A DNA stretch of 32,739 nt from Corallococcus llansteffanensis (GTDB lineage Bacteria > Myxococcota > Myxococcia > Myxococcales > Myxococcaceae): contig NZ_RAWB01000035.1 in the NCBI RefSeq assembly GCF_003612055.1, positions 1 through 32,739 of the forward strand, given 5' to 3'. Made by a program: the position numbers and the translations under genes. This document shows, in pieces, positions 799-16,350 of the stretch. How positions within the stretch are numbered: the stretch's first letter is position 1; each line of letters starts with the position of its first letter. The notes beneath the pieces were generated by a model. The model did not search any database. It was not told where the DNA came from and saw only the letters and a list, made by a program, of their open reading frames with translations.

Positions 799-799
799 G

Positions 800-1738: not shown

Positions 1739-2562
1739 GGCAGCAGCCTCCGGGTGCGGCGCAGGTCGCGCTCGGCGCGGTGGTCCTCGATGAGTTGCGC
1801 GATGCGGGCCTTCACCTGGTTCACGTACCCTTCGATGACGTGGTCCTCCTCGTCTCCGGTGCCTTCGAAGACGAGCGGCTCGCCGTAGTGGATTTCGAGC
1901 CCCACCGGCAGCGGCAGGGGCAGGAGGTACGGCGTCAGGGGCACGTACGGCACGCCCAGCAGCTTCCCCAGCGCGTATGCGTTGGTCACCGTGGGGATGG
2001 CCGCGCCGCCGCCGAGGAAGGCGAACGGGATGATGGGCGAGCGCGTCTGGAGCGCCAGCCGGACGAAGCCCGTGCCGAAGTCCACGAGCGAGTAGCGCTC
2101 CGTGTAGAGCTTCGCGGTGCCGCGGGCGCCCTCCGGAAAAATCATCAGGAGCCGGTCGTCCTCCAGCAGGCGCACGGCGTGCTCCGGCAGGCCGGTGAAC
2201 TGACCGGTGCGGCTGGCCCACAGCGAGGCCACGGGGAACTTGTGGATGAAGCGCTCCACCATGCCCTGCGCGAGCCGGGGCGGATCCATCTCCAGGAGGG
2301 TGGAGGTGAGCACCATCATCCCGTCCACCGCGACGCCGCCGGAGTGGTTGCCCACCAGCATGCCCCGGCCCTTCTTGGGGATGTGCTCCACGCCGGTGCA
2401 GCGCACCCGGAAGTAGCTCCGGTAGAGGAAGGCGAAGAACTCCAACGCCAGCTTCAGGTGCTTCTTGGAGATGCCGTACGGGTCGACGCCGTACTCGTTG
2501 AAGGGCAGCTCCAACCGCTCCACCCGCGCTGACAGCGAATCGCTCTGGGGCACGGGGCGCAC
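1735..2562 (-). CDS. lysophospholipid acyltransferase family protein (PlsC-like)
   Basis: The 275-residue protein transfers, by family, an acyl chain from acyl-CoA or acyl-ACP to a glycerolipid at the membrane. NHSGGVAVD at about residues 72-80 is the His/Asp catalytic block, with the wider spacing seen in the LPLAT/MGAT-like branch rather than the strict Hx4D of PlsC. FPEGARG at 142-148 is the FPEGxRS substrate-binding block, and IIPFAFLGGGAAIP is the downstream block with the conserved Pro. The N-terminus is amphipathic and not a cleavable signal. The start is GTG at 2562, the first in-frame start before PVPQSDS; a later start is possible. It heads an operon with the SDR-like and MFS genes. 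The exact lipid substrate is unknown. Confidence 0.88.
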   Translation of the reverse strand: MRPVPQSDSLSARVERLELPFNEYGVDPYGISKKHLKLALEFFAFLYRSYFRVRCTGVEHIPKKGRGMLVGNHSGGVAVDGMMVLTSTLLEMDPPRLAQGMVERFIHKFPVASLWASRTGQFTGLPEHAVRLLEDDRLLMIFPEGARGTAKLYTERYSLVDFGTGFVRLALQTRSPIIPFAFLGGGAAIPTVTNAYALGKLLGVPYVPLTPYLLPLPLPVGLEIHYGEPLVFEGTGDEEDHVIEGYVNQVKARIAQLIEDHRAERDLRRTRRLLP

Positions 2563-2660
2563 CGTAGCACCGCGCGTGCGCTTTGCACGGGGCCCCCGCG
2601 TACCCCATTGTGCCCGGGCGGGCGGTCCGGCGGGACCGGAGCCCGATGGAGGCGCGCACG

Positions 2661-3308
2661 ATGGCGGGGCAGTGGACGGGTTTGCTGGAGGGAGCGCTCG
2701 CGTGGGCCACGGCGCTGCCGGGACCGCTGGCGAACGAGGTCGCGGTGGACGTGGCCGGCCGGCGGGTGCGGCTGTCGCACGCGCGGGTGGAGGCCCTGTC
2801 GCGCCAGGTGCTCAAGGGGGTGAAGGGGCTGGAGCTGCGCTCCTGGGCCTCGGGCCCCACGGTGTACGACCTGCGGCTGTCCGTGCGGGGCTGGAAGCTG
2901 CGGGTGGAGACCACCCCGGTGCGCGTGGAGCTGGCGGAAGGGCGCTACACCCTGTGGCTGTCCACGCCGGGCCGGGTGGAGCTGGAGGAGTCCCCCGGGG
3001 CCTCGTCGCTGCTGATGGGCGCGCTGCGCACCGGCGCGGGACGGGCCGCGCTCAAGGCCCTGGCCCAGAAGCTGTTGCCGCCCACCATCCAATGGGACGG
3101 GGCGCTGCTCCGGGTGGAGGGCCGGCTGCCGAAGGACGGCGCGCTGGCCTCCCGCCTCTTCGAGTCCTCGTCGCTCACGCTGACCGCGGAGCACGCGCCC
3201 GAAGGGCTGTGGCTGGCCGCGGAGGCATGGCCGGGACTGCTGGACCTGCTCCAGGCCGTGCTGGGGCCCGTGGGGCCCGACGCGGCGCGGCGAACGACGA
3301 CGCCGTGA
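2661..3308 (+). CDS. conserved hypothetical protein, beta-rich
   Basis: The 215-residue protein is not recognised. I chose the ATG at 2661 because GGAGG lies eight bases upstream; an in-frame ATG at 2646 and a TTG at 2583 lack such a site. The sequence alternates hydrophobic and charged residues in long beta stretches (LRLSVRGWKLRVETTPVRV, RYTLWLSTPGRVELE) with short helices between. This pattern resembles small lipid-binding beta-sheet proteins of the DUF2993 type, but that is a guess from pattern only. There is no signal peptide and no obvious catalytic motif. It is divergent from the acyltransferase operon, about 100 bp away, which might link it to lipid handling. Its stop lies four bases from the end of the convergent VOC gene. 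Confidence 0.75.
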   Translation: MAGQWTGLLEGALAWATALPGPLANEVAVDVAGRRVRLSHARVEALSRQVLKGVKGLELRSWASGPTVYDLRLSVRGWKLRVETTPVRVELAEGRYTLWLSTPGRVELEESPGASSLLMGALRTGAGRAALKALAQKLLPPTIQWDGALLRVEGRLPKDGALASRLFESSSLTLTAEHAPEGLWLAAEAWPGLLDLLQAVLGPVGPDAARRTTTP

Positions 3309-3312
3309 CGCG

Positions 3313-3702
3313 TCAGCGACCCTCGCCGTCCCACACGTTGGCGCGCCCCTCCAGGGGGCCGCGCTGCGGACGGACGATGCAGAAGCGCTGGCCGGTGGGG
3401 GCTTCCATCACCCACCAGCGCTTGACGTAGGCCACGCGCTTCGCGCCCAGGGCCTCCAGCCGCTCCAGCTCCGCATCCAGGTCATCCGCTTCGATGTCCA
3501 GGTGGATGCGGCTCTCGTGGTCCACCTTCTGGAGGAGGAACATGGCCTCCTCGGGGTCCGCCTCCAGCTCGCGGTAGTTGGGCGAGTCCGGCTCCGCCGG
3601 CTTCATCGCCCGTCCCAACGCCGCGCTCCAGAAGCGAGCGGCGGCGTCGATATCCTCGACCTTGCAGTCCATGACGAACGCGGCGAGTCGGCTGTGGTGC
3701 AT
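3313..3702 (-). CDS. VOC (glyoxalase/bleomycin-resistance-like) family protein
   Basis: The 129-residue protein is a single vicinal-oxygen-chelate module. The N-terminal part (FVMDCKVEDIDAAARFWSAALGR) is the typical first beta-alpha unit, in which a helix carrying RFWSAALG follows the strand. The second half has RIHLDIEADDLDAELERLEALGA and then WWVMEAPTGQRFCIVRPQ, the D-P/E-G-N-x-F-x-V-type ending of the family. Metal ligands would be the His in IHLDIEA and a Glu in the last strand. The family includes enzymes and small-molecule sequestering proteins, and the substrate cannot be predicted. GGAGA lies about five bases before the ATG. The gene is monocistronic by position, downstream of the GH16 gene on the same strand after a 175-bp gap. 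Confidence 0.88.
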   Translation of the reverse strand: MHHSRLAAFVMDCKVEDIDAAARFWSAALGRAMKPAEPDSPNYRELEADPEEAMFLLQKVDHESRIHLDIEADDLDAELERLEALGAKRVAYVKRWWVMEAPTGQRFCIVRPQRGPLEGRANVWDGEGR

Positions 3703-3877
3703 GGCTTCTCCTGGAGCTCGGGCAGGGAGGGGGAACGCCTCGGGGGAGCCACGGATACACCGAAAAGCAGGGCGTGGGTACGGCAGAGTGAAGGGGGCCG
3801 GAAGTGTCCGCCAGGGTACGCGGGTGCAGGGGAATTGCCGCCCCGTGGACGTTCCGGCCCCGTCCAGTTCCTGAGGC

Positions 3878-5569
3878 CTACTGGCCGCTCATGCCCGGGC
3901 CCGGCTTCCAGACCTTCACGTAGTCGATGGACGCGGTCCACGCCGTGGCGCCCGTGGAGTTCGCGTCGCCGTACCAGAACGCGGACGCGGAGCCGTTGAT
4001 GGCCCAGGTGGAGGCGACGAAGTTCGCCATGCCCACCAGCATCCGCTTGTAGTCGGGGTTGTTGGAGAACGCGGCCGGCAGGGGGATTTCGGTGATGACG
4101 TTCGTGGACGGGTTGCCGATCCACATGCGAATCGTGTTGCCCGTGCGGCGGGCCGTGTAGACCCACTGCTTGCCGCCGGTGCGGTCGACGGCGGGACGGA
4201 CTTCCGACTGCTTGTTGTCCGGGTCCCAGTGCCAGGTCGTCATCACGTTGCTGCCGTCGTTGAAGGGCAGCTCCACGAGGTCCAGCTCCGGCGGCCACGG
4301 CGTCCCGCCCCAGCTCTCCGCCACGGGCCACATCAGGAAGTACATGCCGGTGCCCAGGCCCGGCGGCAGGTTCGCCTTGAACGACACCTGGTAGTCCGCG
4401 TACCCGGGATGCGCGGGCCGGTTGTTGTTGGCGTCCCACCACGTGCCCTGATCCAGGTAGCAGCCGTCCCAGATGCCCGAGCCGTCATTGCGCTTGCGCG
4501 CGCGCAGCTCCATGTAGCCATTGACGGGCACGCACTGGCTCTGCGTGTTCATGTACATGACCGTGTGGACCAGCGGCACATGGGTTTGCCCCTGCTTCCA
4601 CTTGTTCCAGTCATACGTGTCGAAGTCGTCCTGCATGTCCAGCACCCAGCCGGAGGGCGGGGTGGGGATGCCACCCGTGCCCGGGACGGTGCTGGAGAGC
4701 CGGGACCACGAGACGTTGGCGGACGCGCCGCCCGCGGCCTCGTAGTACTCGACCTTCACGCGGTGCGTGCCGGCGGTGAGCGCGATGTCGCCGGTCAGCG
4801 CCGTCGGGCCGTGGTCGCTCCAGTGATTGACGACGAGCGTGCCGTCCACATAGACGCGGCTGCCGTCGTCGGACGTCGTGGAGAACCGGTAGGTGCCCGC
4901 GGTGGAGAAGCTCCAGTCGCCCTCCCAGCGGACGCTGAAGGTGTCCGCGCCCACGCCGGTGCCGGGGCTTCCGGTGCCCCAGTCGAACTGGATGGCCGCG
5001 TCCACGCGCTGGAACGCCTGTGTCGTCAGGTTCTTGTCGCTGAAGTACGTGCCTCGGAAGGCGCCCGTCGGAATGGCAGGGCCGCTGCCGACCGAGTCGC
5101 CGCGGATGGCCACCTCCTGCACCCACGAGCCGGTCGTGTTCGTGCGATAGCGGAAGTAGACGAACCGCGCGTTCGTGTCTGGGATGTCGCAGGCCTGCCA
5201 CGTGAGCTGGCTTCCATCGAGCGTGCAGTCATACCAACCCGTCTGCGACCAGTTGGTGTCGAACAGCTGGACGGCGTAGCCATACGCTTGATCGCCATAG
5301 CTGCGCAGCTCCTGGACCTGTTTCAACGCTCCCAGGTCGTAGCCGACATAGGCCTGATCACCCGCGCCCCAGGCACCCAGGGTGTCGACGTTGTCATTGA
5401 CCTGCCACGGGTAGTCGAACCCACCCTGGTCGATCAGCGTCCCGCTCAGCTCGGAGGTGACCGCGCCCTGGAGGACCCCGACCTCCACCAGAGGGCGGGC
5501 GTCGTCTTCCTGGCACGCCATCGAAAGGAGGAGGGGAATGGCGAGACACGTCCGCTTGAGACGACTCAT
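3878..5569 (-). CDS. secreted GH16 glycoside hydrolase lipoprotein with discoidin-like and PA14 domains
   Basis: The 563-residue protein starts with a lipoprotein signal (CLAIPLLLSMAC, lipid-modified Cys19). Residues about 35-160 form a discoidin (F5/8 type C)-like carbohydrate-binding domain, with repeated aromatic and Asp residues. Residues about 168-292 are a PA14 domain (GTYFSDKNLT, SDDGSRVYVDG, VEYYEAAGGAS), which usually binds glycans. A Pro-rich linker follows. Residues about 308-556 are a GH16 jelly-roll with PELDLVE at 427-433, matching the ExDxxE active site (Glu428 nucleophile, Glu433 acid/base). Known GH16 enzymes cleave beta-1,3- or beta-1,4-glucans, galactans or kappa-carrageenan; which of these applies is not clear. 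The ATG at 5569 has GGAG upstream; an open frame extends to 5758, but the signal peptide fixes the start. A dyad lies just upstream at 5602-5632. Confidence 0.88.
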   Translation of the reverse strand: MSRLKRTCLAIPLLLSMACQEDDARPLVEVGVLQGAVTSELSGTLIDQGGFDYPWQVNDNVDTLGAWGAGDQAYVGYDLGALKQVQELRSYGDQAYGYAVQLFDTNWSQTGWYDCTLDGSQLTWQACDIPDTNARFVYFRYRTNTTGSWVQEVAIRGDSVGSGPAIPTGAFRGTYFSDKNLTTQAFQRVDAAIQFDWGTGSPGTGVGADTFSVRWEGDWSFSTAGTYRFSTTSDDGSRVYVDGTLVVNHWSDHGPTALTGDIALTAGTHRVKVEYYEAAGGASANVSWSRLSSTVPGTGGIPTPPSGWVLDMQDDFDTYDWNKWKQGQTHVPLVHTVMYMNTQSQCVPVNGYMELRARKRNDGSGIWDGCYLDQGTWWDANNNRPAHPGYADYQVSFKANLPPGLGTGMYFLMWPVAESWGGTPWPPELDLVELPFNDGSNVMTTWHWDPDNKQSEVRPAVDRTGGKQWVYTARRTGNTIRMWIGNPSTNVITEIPLPAAFSNNPDYKRMLVGMANFVASTWAINGSASAFWYGDANSTGATAWTASIDYVKVWKPGPGMSGQ

Positions 5570-6711: not shown

Positions 6712-8226
6712 TCACGCAAGTCCCAGGGTGCGGAGGTAGTCATTGGAGAAGGCCGCGCGCAGCGCGGGGCTGGTGAGCAGGGCCTGGCGTGCCTTGAGCC
6801 AGGCTGCCACGCGTTCCGGGCCGTACATGCTCCGCACGCGCGCTCCATCGAGGTGGTTGATCTTCCCCCAATGCAGTGTGTACGGGACCTGCTGCTCGGT
6901 GAGCTGCTGCCAGACCTTCTGGCAGTACGTCTTCGTGCGCGCCGACCCGGCCCCGTCGATGTCGAGCACGCACGTCATGGGGGCGCGGTCGGTGAACGCC
7001 AGCGTGGCCTTGGAGGACATGACGTAGCGCAGCGCCAGCAGGCCGGGGAAGGCGTACTCGCGGTTGATGGCCAGGGCGGTCTCGACGGTCTTGCGCACCT
7101 GGCCCAAAGGAATGCCCAGCGCGCTGCCAAAGGCCTTCCCCCGGGTGGAGGTGTCGGTGAACATCTGCCCCGGGGTCCCGCAGATGTCCGAGTACTCCCC
7201 GTAGAAGCGGTCCAGGAGCCTCCCGAGGACGGGGATGGTCAGGTCCGAGACCATGTCGGTCAGGACGCCGACGATCTCCAGCGCGCTGTCCCCGGGCGTC
7301 AGCTTGCTGCCGGGGCTGGGCGGCCTGGAGCCCGGGGGGCACTGGGCATGCTTGTACATCGCCGTGACATAGACACCGCGCTCCAACTCGTGGGGATTGA
7401 TGACGAACTGGAGGTGATAGGGCTTCTGCCCCGTGGAGCCCGGGAGCTGGACGCCGGAGAAGTCGAGCTGATCCATCGCGCGCCAGAGCCCGTCGGTCAG
7501 GGGCATCCGCTGGCGGTAGGCCTGGAGGTAGTAGCGGTCCTCGGCCACGAGGAGGACGCCATGCACGATGCCGAAGCTGCCCAGGCTCACGAGCGCGGCG
7601 TTGAACAGGGCGTCATCCCGGATGAGCTCCGCTCCCATCTTCTGGGGGATGTCATCGCTGATGGTGGGGGAGCTGGCGCGCTCCAGCCACACGTGCCGCT
7701 CCGGTGAGACCACCAGGTGGAGGCCGGCCACGAAGTCCTGCATGGCGCCGAAGTCCAGGGAGGAGCCATGCGTCCCCGTCGCGATGGCGCCGGCGATGGT
7801 CTGCCCGTTGCTGGCGCCGGAGGTCGGCAGGGCCTTGCCCATCTTCTCCTCCAGGAAGTGGTTCAACTCCGCGACGGAGTTGCCGCACTGGACGAAGAGG
7901 AGGTTGTCCCGCGAACCCGCGTAGGACGGGTGGGTGCGCGGGGTGGGGAAGAGGTAGTTGAGCGGCTTGGTGTTGACGAGGAGGCCGCTGGTGGCGGGCG
8001 CGGTGGAGAAGGACCAGCCGGCTCCCAGGGCACGGATTTCGAGCCCCTCCCGGAGCGCCTGGGCAATCAGCCCCTGCAGGCCCCGGGTGGTATCCGAATA
8101 GCCCTCCGTCGTGGACTGGGAGGCATTGGCGTTCCACACGTCCACCAGCAGCTCCAGCTTCTGGCTGTAGGTCTGGTGCCAGTTCTGCCATTGCTTCAAG
8201 TCGCTCTTGTGGATGATGGGGGGCAT
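6712..8226 (-). CDS. FAD-linked oxidase, D-arabinono-1,4-lactone oxidase-like
   Basis: The 504-residue protein has the VAO/PCMH-type FAD fold. EIRALGAGWSFS at about 63-74 and GQTIAGAIATGTHG at 141-154 are the two flavin-contacting segments, and HWGKINHLD near residue 452 is the C-terminal ALO motif that closes the active site. By family it would oxidise a sugar lactone or alditol with oxygen, producing hydrogen peroxide. In sugar-lactone oxidases that attach FAD covalently, the first segment is GxGHS with the linking His; here Trp71 takes that place, so FAD is probably non-covalent. There is no signal peptide. AGGAGGT precedes the ATG and lies in the last codons of the Bor-like gene, two bases upstream, so the two are co-transcribed. 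The true substrate is unknown. Confidence 0.85.
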   Translation of the reverse strand: MPPIIHKSDLKQWQNWHQTYSQKLELLVDVWNANASQSTTEGYSDTTRGLQGLIAQALREGLEIRALGAGWSFSTAPATSGLLVNTKPLNYLFPTPRTHPSYAGSRDNLLFVQCGNSVAELNHFLEEKMGKALPTSGASNGQTIAGAIATGTHGSSLDFGAMQDFVAGLHLVVSPERHVWLERASSPTISDDIPQKMGAELIRDDALFNAALVSLGSFGIVHGVLLVAEDRYYLQAYRQRMPLTDGLWRAMDQLDFSGVQLPGSTGQKPYHLQFVINPHELERGVYVTAMYKHAQCPPGSRPPSPGSKLTPGDSALEIVGVLTDMVSDLTIPVLGRLLDRFYGEYSDICGTPGQMFTDTSTRGKAFGSALGIPLGQVRKTVETALAINREYAFPGLLALRYVMSSKATLAFTDRAPMTCVLDIDGAGSARTKTYCQKVWQQLTEQQVPYTLHWGKINHLDGARVRSMYGPERVAAWLKARQALLTSPALRAAFSNDYLRTLGLA

Positions 8227-8228
8227 GG

Positions 8229-8588
8229 CTAGCGCACCTCCTGCGGGGCGTGGGCGAGGGACCCCAGCTCACCCGGAGAGGGCTGGGCCTTGGCGCAGCG
8301 CCACTCCACCCGCTGCGGCATCGCGATGCCCAGGGTCACGACGCTGATGAGCGCGAAGCCCAGGTTGGTGCTCTGGGTCACCTCCGCGAGCGCCTGGTCC
8401 TGACAGTTGTCGACCCGTGGCTGCTCCTGGACGAGCCCCCACGCCAGCGACCAGAGGACCTCCCCCTCGGGCTCGGTGGCCGGGGCCCCCGCATGGCCGG
8501 GCGCCTGGACGCGATAGTGCGCACAGGCGGAGGTCAGTGTCAGACACAGCACCGCGGTCAGCCGCCACGAACCGAGCATGGATTGCAT
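8229..8588 (-). CDS. Bor-like lipoprotein
   Basis: The 119-residue protein has a lipoprotein signal (LTAVLCLTLTSAC). The mature part is short, with WSLAWGLVQEQPRVDNCQ, then a stretch ending GFALISVVTLGIAMPQRVEW and a final RCAK. This matches the architecture of the lambda Bor lipoprotein family: an exposed beta segment, a Cys, a helix, a hydrophobic T-L-G-I-x-x-P turn and an ending with R-x-x-C. Bor is a surface lipoprotein linked to serum resistance in E. coli; here the role is unknown. Another in-frame ATG at 8579 could be the real start and would still give a good signal. It precedes the FAD oxidase by two bases and carries that gene's ribosome-binding site. Confidence 0.7.
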   Translation of the reverse strand: MQSMLGSWRLTAVLCLTLTSACAHYRVQAPGHAGAPATEPEGEVLWSLAWGLVQEQPRVDNCQDQALAEVTQSTNLGFALISVVTLGIAMPQRVEWRCAKAQPSPGELGSLAHAPQEVR

Positions 8589-8733
8589 GTGTCCCCACTT
8601 TCACGAAGGAGCGTAGGCGTCTGTCTGGGGGCCTCAATCGCTCGCGCGGGCGGTGGGAGTGATGGGTGCTGGATAGGCGGGAGTATCCTGCGGGGACACG
8701 CGCGAACCCCCCTGTCGCGCCAAGGAGCGGAAG

Positions 8734-10383
8734 ATGAAGCGGTGCCTTCCCCTGTTGTTGCCCCTGCTCACCTGGAACCTGGCCTGCGGTGCGCCGGCTG
8801 AAACCGACGTGCTGGACGCGGCGCTGGCCCCGACCAGTCGGTCAGATGACCTCTCGGATGCGAACCTCTACGACTCGTTCACCCGGACCAACAGCACGTC
8901 CAGCCTGGGCAGCCTGGAGCAGGGGGGCCAGGGCTGGAGCATCACCCCGGCGGGAACGGCGTGGGGCGTCCAGTCCGGGCGGGCGTACCTGGCGACGGAT
9001 GACGCCACCTGGAACGACCACTACGCCACCGTCAACGGCAGCGCCAACGTGCGCGTGCTCGTCTCGCTCGCCACCCTGGGCCAGTACTCCGGCCTGACCT
9101 TCCGGTTCGTCGACCGGAGCAACTGCTGGAAGCTGGCGACGGACGTGAGCGCGGGGCGCTACTTCCTGACGAGGTTCGTCGGTGGGACGCAGACGTTCCC
9201 GCTCCAGATTGCCCAGGCCCCCGTCGCGGGAGACGTGCTGGAGGTGCGCACGTCCGGCAGCCGCATCGACGTCTTCATCAACGGCGTGGCGAAGGGTGGG
9301 GTGACGGACACGAGCCACCAGACGGCCACCCGCGTGGGCCTGCTCGCGAGCCAGGACAACCTCGCGCGCTTCGACGAGTTCCGCGTCTACACCCAGACGG
9401 CGACGCGCAACGCCACGCTGCACCCGTTCCGTTCGGACTCCGTGTGGAACCTGCCCATCGGCCAGGGCGCGACGTACGCCAGCACCACCGACCCGGCGAC
9501 GGCGGACTTCATCGCCACCAACGTCAACGGCGTCAACATCAACACCTGGGCGAACTGGGACGTGTATTCGCACCCCATCACCTTCGCCTCCACCAGCAGC
9601 CCGTGGGCGACGGTGACGGACTACAACGACAGCGGTCGCAGCAGCGCCTATTACGTGCCCGCCACGGCGACCATCGCCGCGGGCAGTGACAAGCACATGC
9701 ACGTCATCAACCCGGCGCGGACGTTCATCGACGAGGCGTGGGACACGACCCGTGTGTCGACCACGGCGTACCGCGTGGGGCGCCACCACAAGATCGACCT
9801 CTACGGCATGGGCCTCGGGCCCCAGAACGGCGTGCGTGCCTACGGCGGCTCCGCGATTGGCGGGCTCATTCGCGCGTGGGAGACCAACCCCAGCGACGCG
9901 GCGTACACGGGGAAGATCCAGCACGCGCTGGCCGTCGCCGTGGACCGCGTGCAGCTCTACTACCAGTGCTGCGGCACCAGCGGCTACGACGCCAACGGCT
10001 ACGGCACGGCGAAGGGCTACGTGTGGCCCGCCACGGAGCAGGACTGGGGCAGTGAGACCAACTACCTGGGCCACGTCCCCATGGGCTCCTACTTCGCCAT
10101 CCCGCCCTCGGTGAACATCCAGGCCCTGGGGCTGTCGCCGGAGGGCCGCATGGTCGCCCAGGCGCTCCAGGACTTCGGCGCCTACGTCACGGACGCCACC
10201 GGAGGCACGGTGGCGTTCTACGTGGAGCCGACCGCGCCCTCCGTGTTCGTCTCCGCGCTGCGGAAGGACCTGCCCGCCATCCGTGCGCAGATGCGGCGGG
10301 TGACCAACAACAGCGCGGCGACCCCCAACGGCCCGGGCACGCGGCGCGTCCCCCTGCTGCCCGCGCTGGCACCCGCTCCGTAG
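8734..10383 (+). CDS. secreted lipoprotein with LamG-like domain and uncharacterised C-terminal domain
   Basis: The 549-residue protein has a lipoprotein signal with Cys18 (LTWNLAC). Residues about 45-220 look like a concanavalin/LamG-type jelly roll (YDSFTRTNS, GQYSGLTFRFVDRSNCWKL, VLEVRTSGSRIDVFINGVAKG, RFDEFRVYT), typical of carbohydrate-binding modules. Residues about 230-530 form a second domain that begins HPFRSDSVWNLPIG and contains DKHMHVINPARTFIDEAW, GLGPQNGVRAYGGSAIGGLIRAWE and IQHALAVAV. Several conserved-looking His, Asp and Glu residues suggest an enzyme, but I recognise no catalytic signature. AAGGAG lies eight bases before the ATG. It is divergent from the Bor-like gene and ends 34 bp from the convergent repeat protein. 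It probably acts at the cell surface on polysaccharide. Confidence 0.8.
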   Translation: MKRCLPLLLPLLTWNLACGAPAETDVLDAALAPTSRSDDLSDANLYDSFTRTNSTSSLGSLEQGGQGWSITPAGTAWGVQSGRAYLATDDATWNDHYATVNGSANVRVLVSLATLGQYSGLTFRFVDRSNCWKLATDVSAGRYFLTRFVGGTQTFPLQIAQAPVAGDVLEVRTSGSRIDVFINGVAKGGVTDTSHQTATRVGLLASQDNLARFDEFRVYTQTATRNATLHPFRSDSVWNLPIGQGATYASTTDPATADFIATNVNGVNINTWANWDVYSHPITFASTSSPWATVTDYNDSGRSSAYYVPATATIAAGSDKHMHVINPARTFIDEAWDTTRVSTTAYRVGRHHKIDLYGMGLGPQNGVRAYGGSAIGGLIRAWETNPSDAAYTGKIQHALAVAVDRVQLYYQCCGTSGYDANGYGTAKGYVWPATEQDWGSETNYLGHVPMGSYFAIPPSVNIQALGLSPEGRMVAQALQDFGAYVTDATGGTVAFYVEPTAPSVFVSALRKDLPAIRAQMRRVTNNSAATPNGPGTRRVPLLPALAPAP

Positions 10384-10417: not shown

Positions 10418-11395
10418 TCAGGGCTGCTTGCGCGGCGCGCCCCCGTCCTTCGACATCGAGCGGACGAAGACGGAGTCGACACCGTGGATGCGCAGCTGCA
10501 TCAGGTCATCCGCGGTGGCGTTGGTGTAGCCCAGGCCGCGCATCTCCTTGACGAACGCGGGCGTCACGCCGTGGATGCGCAGACCCACCAGCGCTTCCGC
10601 GTCCAGGTCCTTGAATCCCAGCCCGCGCATCTCGTTGACGAACGCGGGCGTAATGCCGTGGATGCGCATGGACACGAGGTCGTCGGCCTTCAGGTCCTTG
10701 AAGCCCAGGCCGCGCATCTCGCGGATGAAGTCCGGCGTCACGCCGTGGATGCTCATGGAGAGCAGCGTGTCCAGGTCCAGGCCCTTGAAGCCCGCCGCGG
10801 CCAGGGACTTGATGCGCTCGGGCGTCACGCCGTGGATGCGGGTCTGGACGAGCTGCTCCAGCGTCAGCTTGGAGTAGCCCTCGGCGGCGAGCGCCTTCAC
10901 GTATTCCGGGGTGACGTTGAAGATGCCCACCTGGAGGAGCTCGTCCACCGTGCGCACCTGGTGGCCCGCGGCGGCCAGGGACTTGATGCGCTCCGGGCCC
11001 ACGCCGACCGTGGCCAGCGCGAACTGCTGCTCCGCGTCCGGCTTGGGGAGGCCCAGGTCCGTCAGGGCCTTCGTGTACGCGGCGTTGGGCGTGAAGCGCC
11101 AGGTGCCCGTGCCCTGTCCCTTGGCGAAGCGGCCCTCGAAGTCGAAGGTGCCCGCCTCGCGCACCAGCTTGAAGGGGGCGGTGCTCCCGTCCGCGGTGGA
11201 CAGCCCCTGGAACGCGGTGAGCGGCGCGGAGAAGCCCATCTGCGACCCGGGATCATCCTTCGGATGCAGGGAGAGGTGCAGCTCCGTCTCCCGAGGCGTG
11301 CCGACCCAGGCACCGCTGTCCCGGGAGCCAGCGAGGACGGGGAGGGCGAAGAGGACCACGAACACGGTGAGCCACTGCGACAGGCGCGAGGTCAT
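10418..11395 (-). CDS. secreted protein with 29-residue GVTPxFIxxMRGLGF repeats
   Basis: The 325-residue protein has a signal peptide (WLTVFVVLFALPVLAG). Residues about 25-101 form a beta-rich domain (ELHLSLHPKDD, GTFDFEGRFAKGQGTGTWRF). From residue 102 there are seven consecutive 29-residue units and a partial eighth, with a consensus of G-V-T-P-x-[FY]-[IV]-x-x-M-R-G-L-G-F followed by D-L-x-[AD]-D-x-L and R-I-H. Each unit is predicted to form two short helices, giving a solenoid. The same repeats end the BlaR1-like protein encoded 91 bp upstream, so this is probably a periplasmic partner or target of that sensor. The function is not known. It is the last gene of the blaI-blaR1 operon. Confidence 0.85.
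   Translation of the reverse strand: MTSRLSQWLTVFVVLFALPVLAGSRDSGAWVGTPRETELHLSLHPKDDPGSQMGFSAPLTAFQGLSTADGSTAPFKLVREAGTFDFEGRFAKGQGTGTWRFTPNAAYTKALTDLGLPKPDAEQQFALATVGVGPERIKSLAAAGHQVRTVDELLQVGIFNVTPEYVKALAAEGYSKLTLEQLVQTRIHGVTPERIKSLAAAGFKGLDLDTLLSMSIHGVTPDFIREMRGLGFKDLKADDLVSMRIHGITPAFVNEMRGLGFKDLDAEALVGLRIHGVTPAFVKEMRGLGYTNATADDLMQLRIHGVDSVFVRSMSKDGGAPRKQP
10442..11092 (-). repeat. array of 29-residue (87-bp) coding repeats, seven units plus partial
   Basis: The units begin at residues 102 (degenerate), 131, 160, 189, 218, 247, 276 and 305 of the secreted repeat protein, with exact 29-residue spacing. The last three full units are the most alike (GxTPxFVxEMRGLGF, then R-I-H), pointing to recent local duplication, whereas the first is degenerate. 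Confidence 0.85.
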
Positions 11396-11486
11396 GACGG
11401 TGATTCCTTTCGGGCAAGGCGCGGCCCTCCCGCGCGCTCGGGTGGGAGCGCGCGGGTGGGGCCGTGCGTGAGGAGGGGAGAGGGGG

Positions 11487-13340
11487 TTACTTCCGGGGCT
11501 GCTGCATGCGGCGGATGAAGTCCGCGTCGACGCCGCCGGTGCGCAGGCGCCGCAGCTCGTCCACGTTGGCGGGCTTCAGGCCCGCGGCTTCCAGCTCGCG
11601 GATGTAGGCCGACGTGACGCCCAGGGCGCGCAGCTCCACGGCCGTGTCCAGGTCCAGGTTCCCGAAGCCCGCGGCCTTCAGGTCGCCCAGCCAGGCCGCG
11701 TCGATGCCCACCGCCTTCGCGGACAGCAGCTCCTCCGGATCCGTGGACGTGAAGCCCAGCGCCTTCATCTGCCCCAGCCACTCGGGCGTGACGCCCAGGT
11801 GCTTCATCCCCACGAGCAGCTCGGAGGGAATCGGCTTGCCGAACCGGTCCGCCATGGCCTTCGCGTACTCCGGCGTGATGCCCGCGTGGCTGAACTCGAC
11901 GAGCGTCTCCACCGTGGGCGCGTAGCCCATGGCCGTGACCTTCGCGACGACCTCCGGGGTGACGCCGGCGATCTTCAGCTCGACGAGCTGATCCACCGTG
12001 AGGCGGTCCTGGCCCACGCGGGTGGTCGCATCGGCTTCATCGTCGTCCTCGGAGTCCTCCTTCGCACGCTCGGCGGTGGGCGGCTTCGGGGGCACGGGTG
12101 CGACCGCCGGAGCCGGGGCTGCCGCGGCCACGAGGCGCGGACGGGGCAGCAGGGTGGGAGCCGCGCCCACGACGGGCATCGGGGCCACCACGGGTGCGGA
12201 GACGGAGGGCGCTTCGGTCCGCGTGGGCATCGCCAACGTGGGGGCCACCGCCTCGGCCTTCACGTCGGAACCCTTCACAGGCTGCACGGCGAGCGCGGTG
12301 AGGGGCACCGCCAACGCGAGGCTGCTGGCCAGGGTGACGATGGAGACCCCCGCCGCCCAGCGCGACGAGCACCGCGGCGCGGGCGCCAGCACCAGCCGCC
12401 GCACGCGGTCCGTCAACGAACCTCCGAGCGCGGACAGGGCGGGACCGCCTGCTCCCATCCCCTGCAGCCGCAGCGCCTCCAGCGCGGTGAGCGCACGGGC
12501 GTAGGGGAGCGCGCCGCTGCCCTGGTGCACGGCGAGGTCGTCACAGCAGTTCTCCCGCTCCACGCGGATGACCTGGGACATCCACCACACGACCGGGTGG
12601 TAGAACAACAGCGTCTCCACCAGCGTCTGCACCACGTTCACCGCGAAGTCGTGCCGGCGGATGTGGGCCAGCTCGTGGGCCAGCACCAGCTCCAGCTCGC
12701 GCACGGCGAGCCCCGTGAGCGTGGCGGTGGGCACCAGCACCACCGGCTTCAGCCAGCCCAGCGTGGACGGCACCTCCAGCTTCGACGACACCAGCAGGCG
12801 CACCGGCCGCGTGAGCCCCAGCCGCCGCGCCATCGCCTCCATCCGCTCCTGCCACTCCCTCGACGCGTGCACCGCCTCGTGGACCTGATGCCGCAGGAGC
12901 ATCCAGCCCTTCAAGAGCCGCAGCGACGAGGCCGCGACTCCCATCCCCCATGCCAGCACCAGCCAGGGCAGGTGCTCCCCCACCTGCTGGAAGCTCCGCT
13001 CCCACAGCGGCCGCTCCGACGTCCCGGAGGGCAGGGCGCGCCGGGGCGCGTGAGACGTGCGCGCGAGGGCCGCCGTGCCCGCGAACGCGGGGGCGCTCCG
13101 CTCGAAGGACACCGTCCGCGCGGGCCGGGCCTCCAGGGCGCGCGAGGCATGCCGCCACGCGGTGGCCACGGGCAGCGCGAGCATGATGCCCAGCGCGCCA
13201 CAGGCCAGCGCATAGCGGAGGTTCGCCGAGCGCCCGCCCACCCACCGCAGCGCGAGGGCCAGCGCCGCCGCGACGAGCACGCCCTGCCACACCAGGTGCA
13301 GGAGCGCCCAACCCACCGATTCCAGGATGAGACCGTTCAT
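11487..13340 (-). CDS. BlaR1-like M56 metallopeptidase sensor with C-terminal 29-residue repeats
   Basis: The 617-residue protein has four hydrophobic segments (near residues 10-32, 42-60, 122-140 and 330-352) and an M56 peptidase domain. HELAH at 222-226 is the zinc site and ERENCCDDLAV at 261-271 the third-ligand region, as in BlaR1 and MecR1. In those proteins, sensing outside the membrane activates the cytoplasmic protease, which inactivates the BlaI repressor. Here the usual beta-lactam-binding penicillin-binding domain is missing. Instead, after a Pro/Ala-rich linker (residues 355-425) and an acidic stretch, the C-terminus carries five 29-residue repeats and a partial one (from residue 459). 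The ligand is therefore unlikely to be a beta-lactam. The ATG overlaps the blaI stop by four bases. Confidence 0.9.
   Translation of the reverse strand: MNGLILESVGWALLHLVWQGVLVAAALALALRWVGGRSANLRYALACGALGIMLALPVATAWRHASRALEARPARTVSFERSAPAFAGTAALARTSHAPRRALPSGTSERPLWERSFQQVGEHLPWLVLAWGMGVAASSLRLLKGWMLLRHQVHEAVHASREWQERMEAMARRLGLTRPVRLLVSSKLEVPSTLGWLKPVVLVPTATLTGLAVRELELVLAHELAHIRRHDFAVNVVQTLVETLLFYHPVVWWMSQVIRVERENCCDDLAVHQGSGALPYARALTALEALRLQGMGAGGPALSALGGSLTDRVRRLVLAPAPRCSSRWAAGVSIVTLASSLALAVPLTALAVQPVKGSDVKAEAVAPTLAMPTRTEAPSVSAPVVAPMPVVGAAPTLLPRPRLVAAAAPAPAVAPVPPKPPTAERAKEDSEDDDEADATTRVGQDRLTVDQLVELKIAGVTPEVVAKVTAMGYAPTVETLVEFSHAGITPEYAKAMADRFGKPIPSELLVGMKHLGVTPEWLGQMKALGFTSTDPEELLSAKAVGIDAAWLGDLKAAGFGNLDLDTAVELRALGVTSAYIRELEAAGLKPANVDELRRLRTGGVDADFIRRMQQPRK
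11505..11966 (-). repeat. 29-residue repeats in the BlaR1-like protein C-terminus
   Basis: The units begin at residues 459 (28 residues), 487, 516, 545, 574 and 603 (partial) with the pattern G-[VI]-T-P-E-x-x-x-x-M-x-x-x-G-F and a Leu-rich second half. The pattern and length equal those of the neighbouring secreted protein, although individual units are more diverged here. Confidence 0.85.
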
Positions 13341-13723
13341 GACTCCGCCTCCTTCTCCAGCGACTCCAGCAACTGGCGCAGCTCCGCCAGCTCCTCGGGG
13401 GACGTCTTCTTCGTGGACAGGGCCTGCAGGGCCAGCCGCGCCGGGGACCCGCCGAAGACGCGGTCCACCAGGTCCGTGACCAGCTGCCGCTGCGTGTTCT
13501 CTCGGGGGACGCGGGAGGTGTAGACGTGCGCGCGCTGCGACTCGTCGCGCATCACCAGCCCCTTCTCCGTCATGATCTGCATCGTCTTCAGCACCGTGGT
13601 GTAGCCGCTCCCGTCCTGGAGCGTCTCGTGCACCTCGCGCACCGTGCTGGCTCCCCGCTCCCACAGCACCCGCAGGATGCCCAGCTCCGCATCGGTGGGG
13701 CGCGGCAGCTTGTCTCGGCTCAT
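13337..13723 (-). CDS. BlaI/MecI-family transcriptional repressor
   Basis: The 128-residue protein matches BlaI throughout. RPTDAELGILRVLWERGASTVREVHETL is the start of the winged helix with the recognition region, YTTVLKTMQIMTEKGLVMRDE is the highly conserved BlaI segment, and HVYTSRVPRENTQRQLVTDLVDRVFGG links to the C-terminal dimerisation helices. In BlaR1-linked systems the dimer represses the operon until cleaved. GGAGG and AGGAA lie shortly before the ATG at 13723. The gene heads the blaI-blaR1-repeat-protein operon, and two TACGAA-type inverted repeats cover its promoter. An open frame continues upstream to 13858 but has no support. Confidence 0.95.
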   Translation of the reverse strand: MSRDKLPRPTDAELGILRVLWERGASTVREVHETLQDGSGYTTVLKTMQIMTEKGLVMRDESQRAHVYTSRVPRENTQRQLVTDLVDRVFGGSPARLALQALSTKKTSPEELAELRQLLESLEKEAES

Positions 13724-13755: not shown

Positions 13756-13797
13756 GATATACGAATGATTTCGTAGGTGTCAACGAAGCCTTTCGTA
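13756..13797 (-). promoter_or_regulatory. blaI operon promoter with two BlaI-type operators
   Basis: On the minus strand TTGACA (13778-13783) and TATATC (13756-13761) are 16 bp apart, forming a sigma-70-like promoter about 33 bp before the blaI ATG. Between them lies a perfect inverted repeat TACGAA-N4-TTCGTA (13760-13775). A second copy with one mismatch (AACGAA-N4-TTCGTA on the plus strand, 13782-13797) overlaps the -35 element. The two centres are 22 bp apart, about two helical turns, so two repressor dimers could bind on one face of the DNA. The short spacing and TAC/GTA ends resemble known BlaI/MecI sites. Confidence 0.7.
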
Positions 13798-14101: not shown

Positions 14102-15241
14102 ATGCGTGTCATCCTCTTCTGTCACTCGCTGCTGTCGGACTGGAACCACGGCAACGCCCACTTCCTGCGCGGGGTGGTGACGGAGCTCGCCGTGCGCGGC
14201 CATGAGGTGCGCGTCTTCGAGCCCGAGGACGCGTGGAGCCTCCAGCACCTTCGCGCTGAACCCCAGGGTGAGGCGGCGCTGGCCGAGGTGCGCGGCGTCT
14301 ACCCGTTCGTGCGGCCGGAGTGCTACGCGGCCGCTTCGCCCGACCTGGATTGCGCGCTCGACGGGGCGGACCTGGTGCTCGTGCACGGGAGGAGCCCGCC
14401 GGAGCTGGTGCGGCGCCTGGGCGAGCGCCGCGGCGCGGGCGGCACCTTCCGGCTGCTCTTCCACGACACCTACCACCGGTGCGTGAGCGCTCGCGAGGAG
14501 ATGGCCCGGTACGCGCTGGACGCCTTCGATGGGGTGCTCGCCTTCGGTGACATCCTCCGGCGCCTGTACCTGGAGGAAGGCTGGGCCCGCCGCGCGTGGA
14601 CGTGGCACGAGGCCGCGGACGTGCGCGTGTTCCACCCGCGCCCCCGCAACCGCGAGGTGCGGGACCTGGTCTGGATTGGCAACTGGGGGGACGACGAGCG
14701 CACCGCGGAGCTGCACGAGTTCCTGCTGGAGCCGGTGCGCACGCTGGGGCTGACGGCGCGGGTGCACGGCGTGCGCTACCCGGCCCCGGCGCTGCGGGCG
14801 CTGTCGGAGGTCGGCATCGAGTACGCGGGCTGGCTGCCCAACCACCGGGTGCCCACGGCCTTCGCGCAGGCTCGCGTCACCGTGCACGTGCCTCGCAGGC
14901 CCTACGCCACCGTGCTGCCCGGCATCCCCACCATCCGCCCCTTCGAGGCGCTGGCGTGCGGCATCCCGCTGGTGACGGCGCCCTGGGAGGACGCGGAGGG
15001 GCTCTTCACGCCGGGGAGGGACTTCCTCGTCGCCCGCGACGGCGCGCAGATGCGGCGTCACTTGTCCGCGCTGCTCGCGGACCCCGCGATGCGGCGCGAG
15101 TTCGCGGACGCGGGCCTGCGCACGGTGCTGGCGCGCCACACCTGCGCGCACCGCGTGGATGAGCTGCTGGGCATCTGCCAGGAGCTGGGCCTGTCCCCCG
15201 AAGTCCTCCACCCGCTATCGTCCGAAAGAGTCCTCGCATGA
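14102..15241 (+). CDS. CgeB-like glycosyltransferase (GT-B fold), first of a tandem pair
   Basis: The 379-residue protein has a GT-B layout. The N-terminal half begins MRVILFCHSLLSDWNHGNAHFLRG, in which the His/Gly-rich loop follows strand 1 and is typical of CgeB/DUF3880-like transferases. The C-terminal half carries GIPTIRPFEALACGIPLVTAPWEDAEGLFTPGRDFL, the glycosyltransferase family 1 type nucleotide-sugar region (x-FEALACGIPLV), and ends with the YA/CAHRVDELL helix. It is cytoplasmic, with no signal. The sugar and acceptor are unknown. Its ATGA end overlaps the start of the second transferase, a paralogue. A GAGGAG lies about 12 bases upstream of the ATG. The flanking remnants suggest it once belonged to a larger glycan cluster. 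Confidence 0.88.
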   Translation: MRVILFCHSLLSDWNHGNAHFLRGVVTELAVRGHEVRVFEPEDAWSLQHLRAEPQGEAALAEVRGVYPFVRPECYAAASPDLDCALDGADLVLVHGRSPPELVRRLGERRGAGGTFRLLFHDTYHRCVSAREEMARYALDAFDGVLAFGDILRRLYLEEGWARRAWTWHEAADVRVFHPRPRNREVRDLVWIGNWGDDERTAELHEFLLEPVRTLGLTARVHGVRYPAPALRALSEVGIEYAGWLPNHRVPTAFAQARVTVHVPRRPYATVLPGIPTIRPFEALACGIPLVTAPWEDAEGLFTPGRDFLVARDGAQMRRHLSALLADPAMRREFADAGLRTVLARHTCAHRVDELLGICQELGLSPEVLHPLSSERVLA

Positions 15242-16350
15242 GACACGGCCTGCGCATCGCCTTCTTTGGTTCGAGCCTGGTGTCCGCCTCCTGGAACGGC
15301 GCGGTCACCTACTACCGGGGCCTCATCCGCGCCCTGCACGCGCGTGGCCACCGCGTCACCTTCTACGAGCCGGAGGTCCACGGGCGGCAGGAGCACCGCG
15401 ACCTGGCGGACCCGGCCTGGGCCCGCGTCGTCGTCTACTCCGTGCGCGACACCGACATGCTGGGGGACTGCCTGGAGGAGGCCTGGGGCTCCGACGTGGT
15501 GGTGAAGGCCAGCGGCGTGGGCGCGTTCGACGCGCTCCTGGAGGCGCAGGTACTGGAGCTGCGGCGCTCCGGCACCCAGGTGGTGTTCTGGGACGTGGAC
15601 GCGCCCGCCACGCTGGAGCGCGTGGCGAAGGACGCAGGCGACCCCTTCCGCGCGCTCATCCCCCGCTACGACCACGTCCTCACCAACGGGGGCGGCGCGC
15701 CGGTGGTGAACGCGTACCGGGAGCTGGGGGCGCGCAGGTGCATGCCCATCTACAACGCGTTGGACCCGGACACGCACCACCCGGTGCCGCCCGAGGCGCG
15801 CTTCGCGGCGGACCTGTCCTTCCTGGGCAACCGGCTGTCGGACCGCGAGGCGCGGGTGGAGGACTTCTTCCTCAAGGCCGCGACGCTGCTGCCCCGGGCG
15901 CGGATGCTGCTGGGCGGCAGCGGGTGGGAGGACCGCGCGCTGCCCGGCAACGTGCGGCGCCTGGGCCATGTCTCCACGCAGGACCACAATGCGCTGAACT
16001 GCTCGGCGCGCGCGGTGCTCAACGTCCACCGTGACAGCATGGCGCGCTTCGGCTTCTCCCCCGCGACGCGCGTGTTCGAGGCGGCCGGCGCGGGCGCGTG
16101 CCTCATCACCGATGCGTTCGAGGGCGTGGAGCAGTTCCTGGAGCCCGGGCGCGAGGTGCTGGTGGCCCGCTCCGGCGAGGAGGTCGCGGAGCACGTCCAG
16201 CGCCTCACCCCGAAGGAGGCCGAGCGCGTGGGGAAGGCGGCGCTGCGGCGCGTGCTGGCCGAGCACACGTACGCGCACCGCGCGGAGCAGGTGGAGGCGG
16301 AGCTGGGCTTCCGTCTTTCCGCCGCGGTCGTGGCGCCGGGGGGAATGTGA
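15238..16350 (+). CDS. CgeB-like glycosyltransferase (GT-B fold), second of a tandem pair
   Basis: The 370-residue paralogue of the preceding protein begins [21 protein letters not shown] and its C-terminal part has [37 protein letters not shown], equivalent to the donor-binding region of the first enzyme. [19 protein letters not shown] and [39 protein letters not shown] fit the DUF3880/CgeB pattern, in which the central linker contacts the nucleotide sugar. Both proteins end with an [HY]-A-H-R-[AV] helix, supporting duplication. Substrates are unknown, but two coupled transferases suggest successive sugar additions to one glycan or glycolipid. The start overlaps the first gene by four bases. 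Confidence 0.88.

Follow-up and report, generated by a model that had tools for sequence, protein, structure and literature searches.

The window analysed here is a stretch of 32,739 nt on contig NZ_RAWB01000035.1 of Corallococcus llansteffanensis, numbered along the forward strand. Three genes follow one another on its minus strand: blaI, a blaR1-like gene and a gene for a secreted repeat protein (Table 1). The range given in the original prediction, 10418-13723, spans all three genes, and its end coordinate is the start of blaI. The stop codon of blaI overlaps the start codon of blaR1 (ATGA). BlaI scores 94.7 bits against PF03965 (Penicillinase_R; cut-off 22.6) and its gene adjoins blaR1, as expected of a BlaI/MecI-domain repressor.

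Table 1. Features of the blaI-blaR1-secreted protein locus, in order of transcription.
Feature	Positions	Strand	Basis or remark
Second operator dyad, TACGAA-AGGC-TTCGTT	13782..13797	-	22 bp upstream of the other dyad; overlaps the -35-like TTGACA
TTGACA, -35-like hexamer of the blaI promoter	13778..13783	-	Promoter assigned by eye
Operator dyad, TACGAA-ATCA-TTCGTA	13760..13775	-	In the -35/-10 spacer; touches the -10-like TATATCT
blaI, BlaI/MecI-type repressor, 128 aa	13337..13723	-	PF03965, E 6e-27; frame and stop checked
blaR1-like M56 metallopeptidase, 617 aa	11487..13340	-	PF05569, E 2e-30
HELAH zinc motif, residues 222-226	12663..12677	-	Invariant in 14/14 aligned BlaR1
ENCCD (EXXXD) motif, residues 263-267	12540..12554	-	
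Six BlaR1 repeats of ~29 residues, residues 459-613	11502..11966	-	
Secreted repeat protein, 325 aa	10418..11395	-	AlphaFold2 model, mean pLDDT 90.6
Probable Sec signal peptide, residues 1-22	11330..11395	-	By eye and alignment
N-terminal beta domain (SecN), residues 26-103	11087..11320	-	AlphaFold2 model
Seven 29-residue repeats, residues 131-316	10448..11005	-	Each two short helices

The BlaR1-like protein was predicted to keep the HELAH motif and M56 core while lacking a penicillin-binding domain, and both points hold. HELAH and ENCCD lie 41 residues apart, the spacing given for HEXXH/EXXXD (H201/E242) in S. aureus BlaR1 (PMC9834060). An HEXXH-like string also occurs by chance at residue 154; the true motif is the one at 222. 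The six best Foldseek matches (E 3e-5 to 1.2e-3) were all cryo-EM chains of S. aureus BlaR1, and alignment with 8exr_A gave a TM-score by target of 0.61 and an rmsd of 4.6 Å over 195 columns; the transmembrane protease part has the BlaR1 fold. The AlphaFold2 model (mean pLDDT 74) contains four long transmembrane-type helices (residues 3-34, 39-71, 112-155 and 329-351), a low-confidence linker at about 352-435 and, where the penicillin-binding domain would sit, a repeat solenoid modelled at pLDDT about 90. Among the Pfam matches listed up to E 1 there was none to a penicillin-binding (class D beta-lactamase-like) or transpeptidase family, and the protein scores 75.6 bits against NCBIfam blaR1_generic, below the 400-bit cut-off. 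A script together with inspection by eye gave six C-terminal repeats, starting at residues 460, 488, 517, 546, 575 and 604 (numbering one above Met-based), so the predicted repeats are present, with a first spacing of 28 and 29 thereafter. The repeat domain is presumably periplasmic, because the known topology of BlaR1 is N-out, C-out (PMC9834060).

In the secreted protein, Ala22 is invariant in 18/18 aligned members, and SecN matched no Pfam family above its cut-off. The repeats of the secreted protein start at residues 131, 160, 189, 218, 247, 276 and 305 (script and by eye), which agrees with the predicted seven at exact 29-residue spacing; the second opens N-V-T-P, and therefore a script looking for the G pattern gave six and the count by eye seven. 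Foldseek returned no match to this protein at E 0.001. We dropped a mobile-element origin for the gene after searches of 72,556 plasmid and 50,697 phage records yielded no match at E 1e-5. A plain helix-hairpin-helix identity was also rejected, since the window protein scores under the cut-off of Pfam HHH_5; among weak matches (E up to 0.1), HHH_5 occurs in 7/18 members, level with SAM_GIDA_C, and these two are the commonest.

The two repeat arrays of the window resemble each other. BLASTP aligned BlaR1 and the secreted protein at 37% identity over 180 residues (E 8e-33), and the mean identity between their repeats, 0.29, exceeded the maximum of 1000 shuffles (0.106). Judged by these comparisons, the likeness is beyond chance. 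Repeat numbers in BlaR1 and its secreted partner correlate (Spearman 0.53, n=53, kinship uncorrected), and in the wide-scan loci the arrays of both proteins average out as mildly acidic, with no charge complementarity. E-values from phmmer run inflated for tandem repeats.

TAL effectors and BurrH share the two-helix repeat architecture, and a TALE repeat protein (PDB chain 9jo8) was matched by the window protein (E 2e-19), its relative L041 (6e-22) and the family profile (3e-18); the reversed repeat region gave no match at E up to 1. Against PF03377 (TAL_effector), the window protein reached 15.2 bits, under the cut-off of 28, and only 1/18 members matched even at E 0.1. TALE repeats are 33-35 residues long, compared with 29 here, and TALE proteins are cytosolic or nuclear DNA binders whereas the window repeat protein is secreted. 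Structural comparison with TALE and BurrH chains gave Z 5.3-7.1 and rmsd 6.7-10.7 Å overall. For the secreted model, BurrH scored Z 7.1 (rmsd 7.1 Å over 217), TALE chains Z 5.3-7.0 and an mTERF-containing entry Z 6.5, where repeat Z values under about 13 are ambiguous and may reflect a common arrangement. We rejected filing the protein in the TALE family on the Pfam cut-off and repeat length. If the resemblance is homology, it bears on where TALE repeats originated. A screen of TALE-like proteins covered repeats of 30-43 residues (PMC5472282), and the term BlaR1 is absent from its main text.

The dyads in Table 1 conform to a BlaI-type operator consensus, TACGAA-N4-TTCGTA, that is usually doubled ahead of blaI, and we infer that BlaI binds them. 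All 60 blaI upstream regions scanned (58 distinct) had one or more sites with no more than 1 mismatch, and 57 of the 60 had a tandem pair at 20-22 bp spacing (up to 2 mismatches); base-shuffled controls gave a single site in 3/12000 regions. Within the assembly that contains the window, this promoter is the sole place with the exact core; allowing up to 1 mismatch adds one lone 1-mismatch site. A reversed-pattern control at that tolerance gave 4 hits per strand in this genome versus 3 for the operator core; specificity is confined to the exact core and to the doubled pattern. For loci L052 and above, the scan omitted blaI matches weaker than E 1e-30 and hence left out the alphaproteobacterial trios. 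Six of these (L101, L108, L114, L118, L129, L130) have by eye tandem TACA/TGTA-like boxes before blaI, which we take to be the classical BlaI operator type. Among hand-picked extra loci, neither type was visible by eye in L061 and L131, and L105 lacks upstream sequence.

We surveyed the distribution with SecN, repeat, BlaR1 and BlaI profiles built from Myxococcota copies, which may under-score distant loci (for example the BlaR1 repeats of L115); many of the loci are metagenome assemblies. A wide scan that started from Myxococcota repeat patterns confirmed 95 loci, of which the best 80 were kept; blaI, repeat-bearing blaR1 and the secreted gene were adjacent in 50/80, three further loci lacked only a visible blaI, and 7/80 were cut off upstream. 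The trio recurs across several phyla. In Myxococcota, the pair is adjacent in 55/63 matching genomes. Six Myxococcota genomes carry the secreted gene away from blaIR (G016, G090, G092, G094 and G096 from loci, G091 by coordinates), and the tandem operator is kept in 6/6. We rejected operon hitch-hiking of the secreted gene, given that the operator is present at each of the six detached copies found. Two Myxococcaceae genomes (G095, G097) have the repeat BlaR1 and the operator, and no secreted protein was detectable in them.

At six loci (L099, L164, L264, L272, L306, L314) BlaR1 carries the secreted module, SecN plus repeats, in fusion as its sensor domain. The L099 fusion is 53% identical to BlaR1 of the close split relative L107 (residues 15-610, running into the repeats) and 65% identical to the L107 secreted protein (residues 424-762); relative to L107, BlaR1's own repeats are gone and replaced. 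On a quick tree, four changes are required for the fused label, at least three of them backed by starred branches, with gains and losses undistinguished; the detached label, for the four such copies included, needs three changes, two of them forced. L315, an orphan by its label, starts right at the edge of a contig and could be a truncated fusion.

In Acidobacteriota, and in that phylum only, the survey goes partly towards the outcome named as refuting the original prediction, repeat proteins mostly without a nearby BlaR1 gene: the secreted protein stood without a visible BlaR1 in 31/60 fetched loci (three, L273, L283 and L315, near a contig end), with up to five candidates scored and one place fetched per genome. 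Among 30 M56 loci from genomes with stand-alone secreted copies, only two (L145, L164) had repeats. From these two observations, the secreted protein also has roles outside the circuit. No conserved partner of the stand-alone copies emerged: in the 28 of the 31 loci checked, neighbours recur only within one lineage and we recognised none as an envelope sensor; a same-strand gene lies just upstream in 16/28. Single stand-alone copies lie beside an ECF sigma gene (L112) and a DUF4097 gene (L087).

The operator also marks BlaR1 relatives with other C-termini: SLT, SLT plus M23, polysaccharide deacetylase or Poly_export in some, TonB_C or 'SDYE' repeats without a Pfam name in others. These M56 proteins share the blaI-blaR1 order and tandem operator with the window system and differ in their sensor modules; no repeat ORF was scored near their genes in ten fetched loci. 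The operator signature brings to light BlaR1-like sensors whose C-termini resemble wall enzymes (SLT, M23, deacetylase). Together with Poly_export, these neighbouring architectures, rather than the window protein itself, suggest envelope-polymer sensing. The TonB_C and 'SDYE' C-termini do not favour it.

Operator conservation, retention of the operator by detached copies and fusion of the module to BlaR1 together indicate that the secreted protein is part of the BlaI/BlaR1 circuit, and the recurrence of the trio in several phyla likewise upholds the predicted single circuit. To the gene set, motifs, tandem operator, its retention by unlinked secreted genes and the fusion, all read from sequence, our preferred scheme adds the postulates of BlaI-dyad binding, BlaI cleavage, periplasmic location, a shared ligand and feedback. 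The system would be a BlaI/BlaR1-type regulated-proteolysis switch with its sensor swapped. BlaI on the two tandem dyads over the operon promoter would jointly repress blaI, blaR1 and the secreted gene. A cell-envelope ligand, by our guess a wall or surface polymer, would bind BlaR1's periplasmic solenoid and turn on the cytosolic M56 protease, leading to BlaI cleavage and expression of the operon. The soluble protein made on induction, built on the same module type, would bind this ligand in the periplasm and buffer or process it; the signal would then fall and the circuit reset. We regard this scheme, in which one binding module, both anchored in BlaR1 and in soluble form, recognises a common envelope ligand and feeds back through BlaI, as about as likely as not.

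It is possible, though doubtful, that the secreted protein is instead a direct co-receptor or inhibitor whose solenoid sits on that of BlaR1 and keeps the protease off until ligand removes it, as CpxP acts on CpxA. Homologous repeats in both proteins, shared regulation with blaIR, the fusion and the correlated repeat numbers would fit such contact, but BlaR1's own repeats are lost in the L099 fusion, G095 and G097 keep BlaR1 repeats without the secreted protein, and the charges of the two arrays are not complementary. Contact as a necessity is weakened by L099, by G095 and G097 and by the Acidobacteriota stand-alone copies.

We consider it unlikely that the secreted protein is purely an output, a BlaI-controlled envelope-protection effector whose similarity to BlaR1 reflects ancestry alone (recruitment of the sensor from the secreted protein, or the reverse). 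The many stand-alone copies, including those beside ECF sigma and DUF4097 genes, would suit this role, but repeated gain or loss of the fusion and linkage in several phyla suggest a continuing tie. Similarly improbable is a beta-lactam or wall-damage response in which the repeat domain senses drug-released wall fragments. In G065 the operator precedes a gene of the PF00144 beta-lactamase family, in G066 it precedes the counterpart of that gene (96% identical), and a peptidoglycan dipeptide is described as binding BlaI/MecI (PMC3305447); against this, the window BlaR1 lacks a penicillin-binding domain, the operon has no beta-lactamase gene, and elsewhere in the assembly the operator core has only its lone mismatched site. 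The predicted separation from beta-lactam resistance is thus likely, with the PF00144 genes in two genomes as the qualification and a cell-wall link possible. Most doubtful is that the 29-residue repeats form an ancient periplasmic branch of the superfamily from which TALE repeats also arose and serve as an expandable recognition solenoid, with the BlaR1 copy reading an envelope polymer and a soluble variable-repeat copy docking on BlaR1 as a diffusible co-receptor; if true, repressor proteolysis would be under the control of a repeat-coded receptor in two parts, and the origin of TALE repeats would have a lead.

No paper on a repeat-bearing BlaR1 was among the matches listed for open PMC papers at the level of titles and abstract starts. 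BlaI/BlaR1 is familiar chiefly as a switch that responds to penicillin; the form described here, which joins another kind of sensor to a conserved operator and a same-module secreted partner, points to a little-studied cell-envelope sensing circuit in several bacterial phyla. Myxococcus and Corallococcus carry this form of BlaR1, and genetic testing is feasible there.

With BlaI/BlaR1 and MecI/MecR1 of staphylococci and Bacillus licheniformis, the window system shares the adjacency of blaI and blaR1, M56 HEXXH and EXXXD motifs at the same spacing, dyad operators at the promoter and probably a C-terminal extracytoplasmic domain. It differs in having a repeat solenoid in place of the penicillin-binding sensor, in its operator sequence (TACGAA-N4-TTCGTA), in its blaR1_generic score and in the added secreted relative of the sensor. 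CpxP/CpxA and LiaX/LiaFSR are envelope-stress feedback systems that likewise couple a secreted or surface protein to an envelope-stress sensor. However, their proteins are unrelated and they signal by phosphorelay, whereas the circuit here would act by repressor proteolysis.

The original prediction described a BlaR1-like protein that keeps the M56 core and HELAH, lacks a penicillin-binding domain and shares 29-residue repeats with a secreted protein encoded downstream, and these gene-level observations were borne out. The blaI and blaR1 genes overlap by four bases, and a gap of 91 bases separates blaR1 from the secreted-protein gene. No penicillin-binding domain was among the Pfam matches listed for the window BlaR1. 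Six repeats lie at its C-terminus and seven in the secreted protein, and by BLASTP (E 8e-33) the two sequences are clearly related. For the glycosyltransferase genes on the other side of blaI, a Pfam run on the first gave Glyco_trans_1_2 (E 4e-40), and its neighbour has a similar look.

Features in the window and in fetched loci (L numbers)
Location	Feature	Position	Strand	Remarks
Window	blaI	13337-13723	minus	PF03965, E 6e-27
Window	blaR1-like gene	11487-13340	minus	PF05569, E 2e-30
Window	secreted-protein gene	10418-11395	minus	third in row after blaI and blaR1
Window	operator core	13760-13775		exact
Window	operator core	13782-13797		≤1 mismatch
Window	two consecutive glycosyltransferase genes	14102-16350	plus	divergent from blaI
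L106	distant DUF5916-type relative	6924-9236		Krumholzibacteriota record; 28% identity, E 1e-33; adjoins stand-alone secreted repeat protein
L112	ECF sigma gene and weak-HEAT-match gene	3417-4777		Calditrichaeota record; these, not blaI/blaR1, upstream of secreted repeat protein
L134	M56 peptidase fused to SLT lytic-transglycosylase domain	775-2304		window's own genome, contig C122
L226	AhpC-TSA/DUF4369-like gene	273-1499		behind sole Acidobacteriota operator site not before blaI
L317	M56 + polysaccharide deacetylase fusion	878-2917		behind same BlaI operator
L325	M56 + Poly_export fusion	447-2765		behind same BlaI operator

Membership of the secreted protein in the BlaI regulon is best supported by the distribution of a putative operator, a TACGAA-N4-TTCGTA dyad. 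At least one such site (≤1 mismatch) was present in all 60 blaI upstream regions (58 distinct), and 57 of the 60 carried two sites 20–22 bp apart (≤2 mismatches); in 12000 trials with base-shuffled regions, a site turned up 3 times. With at most one mismatch, the core occurs in the window's assembly at the two tabulated places and at one lone place on contig C555. Since a reversed-pattern control gave 4 hits per strand there against 3 for the core, only the exact core is telling in that assembly. The stricter double pattern yielded 70 sites, spread over 62 of the 195 Myxococcota genomes, against no hits in the control. Six sites precede detached secreted genes (G016, G090, G091, G092, G094 and G096, that of G091 judged from coordinates). 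Two more stand before a PF00144 beta-lactamase-family gene (L198 and L199; G065 by Pfam, its G066 counterpart being 96% identical), and three before a DUF5916-type gene, assigned by Pfam in G117 and from 60–61% identity in G073 and G074. The other 59 were placed at blaI, by profile where the locus was fetched and otherwise by position. Among the 30 sites fetched as loci, 24 lie before blaI, 4 before a detached secreted gene and 2 before another gene. Acidobacteriota had 20 operator sites in 19 of 396 genomes, 19 of them before blaI. Six alphaproteobacterial trios (blaI, repeat BlaR1 and secreted gene adjacent) have, by eye, TACA/TGTA-like boxes in place of the dyad. Three Myxococcaceae loci (L201, L202, L203) have the tandem operator ahead of a CBM9/DUF5916-type gene.

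BlaR1 and the secreted protein are as a rule linked in Myxococcota and linked in only a minority of cases in Acidobacteriota. In Myxococcota, 63 of 195 genomes matched the secreted protein or the BlaR1 repeats: the pair was adjacent in 55, the secreted gene lay only elsewhere in 5 (G090, G091, G092, G094, G096), BlaR1 occurred without it in 2 (G095, G097) and the pair was broken across contigs in 1 (G133). In Acidobacteriota, with up to five candidates scored per genome, 62 of 396 genomes matched; one locus was fetched in 60 of these, and the other two (G195, G203) were covered by L052, L164 and L111. The 60 loci comprised 18 pairs, 4 fusions, 31 with the secreted gene only (L273, L283 and L315 near a contig end), 3 with a repeat ORF only, 3 with a repeat BlaR1 only and 1 with nothing scored. 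The Acidobacteriota count tells in part against the original prediction, in that phylum only. A wide scan of genome contigs confirmed 95 loci, and the best 80, classed by profile, comprised 50 trios, 3 pairs with blaI unseen, 1 pair with unscored BlaR1 repeats, 1 fusion, 1 repeat BlaR1 only, 12 secreted genes without adjacent BlaR1, 7 loci cut off upstream and 5 repeat proteins without SecN, the N-terminal beta domain of the secreted protein. By record title, trios came from Acidobacteriota, Myxococcota, Alphaproteobacteria, Rhodothermia and others. Of 16 genomes with stand-alone copies, 12 supplied 30 M56 loci, and repeats were found in two of these (L145, and L164, a fusion).

In 16 of 28 Acidobacteriota stand-alone loci (including L263, L267, L270, L274, L275, L278 and L280) a gene on the same strand, some 490 aa long in L313, lies upstream of the secreted gene, usually within 700 bases; it recurs within one lineage. 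Five Chloroflexi-titled loci (L093, L109, L120, L124, L125) have 29-residue repeats behind an N-terminal SHOCT-like segment, with no signal peptide seen by eye; four searched genomes of these loci gave no M56 match. In L120, the one locus run through Pfam, the repeat gene adjoins a DUF2089 gene.

Six loci (L099, L164, L264, L272, L306, L314) encode M56, SecN and repeats in one open frame. Mapped on a quick 109-module tree, the fused state took four changes, of which starred branches back at least three, without distinguishing gains from losses; split L107 was sister to fused L099. L099 matches the L107 BlaR1 at 53% over residues 15–610 and its secreted protein at 65% over residues 424–762; where its repeats align to those native to BlaR1, identity is 28–30%. 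By eye, no signal peptide was seen at the L099 join. The secreted module can thus act as the sensor in its own right, and the fusions together with the regulon evidence indicate that what it binds is the signal or something close to it. The original prediction allowed for repeat–repeat contact or a shared ligand. Docking of the secreted solenoid directly on the BlaR1 solenoid is our second choice and seems rather unlikely; secreted copies standing alone argue, as does the L099 fusion with its loss of BlaR1's own repeats, that such contact is not required. With the ligand probably near the signal and contact dispensable, our first choice, given about an even chance, is that tethered and soluble copies of one binding module would have an envelope ligand in common, with feedback running through BlaI. 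There is a hint of wall or surface polymers as the signal in the same-operator BlaR1 relatives that end in SLT, SLT+M23, polysaccharide deacetylase or Poly_export. It does not hold throughout, since further relatives have TonB_C or 'SDYE' repeats at this end.

Behind the tandem BlaI operator we saw M56+SLT+M23 (L200, genome G068) and M56+SLT (L319–L321, Acidobacteriota); the operator core is absent from the L134 locus. A different C-terminal repeat, mostly around 'SDYE', occurs in BlaR1-like L151, L153, L157, L158, L324 and L326, and had no Pfam name in the two proteins scanned (L324, L326).

AlphaFold2 modeled the secreted protein (mean pLDDT 90.6) as six strands (26–103) followed by two short helices per 29 residues. 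The BlaR1 model (mean pLDDT 74) has four long transmembrane-type helices and a protease domain, then a low-confidence linker of ~80 residues and a solenoid with pLDDT ~90. Foldseek matched the BlaR1 model to S. aureus BlaR1 (E 3e-5) and gave no match at E 0.001 for the secreted-protein model. VIA-align ranked BurrH (Z 7.1, rmsd 7.1 Å) and TALE chains top for the latter and an mTERF-containing entry ninth (Z 6.5), with its own warning that such Z may reflect merely a common arrangement. By sequence, PDB TALE chain 9jo8 matched the window protein (E 2e-19), a relative (6e-22) and a family profile (3e-18); the reversed repeat stretch had no match up to E 1. The window protein falls below the Pfam cut-off of the TALE family, and these comparisons point to resemblance, not family membership.

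Among the open PMC papers listed, none dealt with the repeat-type sensor, with a secreted relative under shared control, with the fusions or with the TACGAA-N4-TTCGTA operator. BlaI, M56 and dyad operators are parts already known. The window BlaR1, with HELAH at residues 222–226 and ENCCD at 263–267, has the same 41-residue HEXXH-to-EXXXD spacing as S. aureus BlaR1, whose H201 and E242 are likewise 41 apart (PMC9834060).
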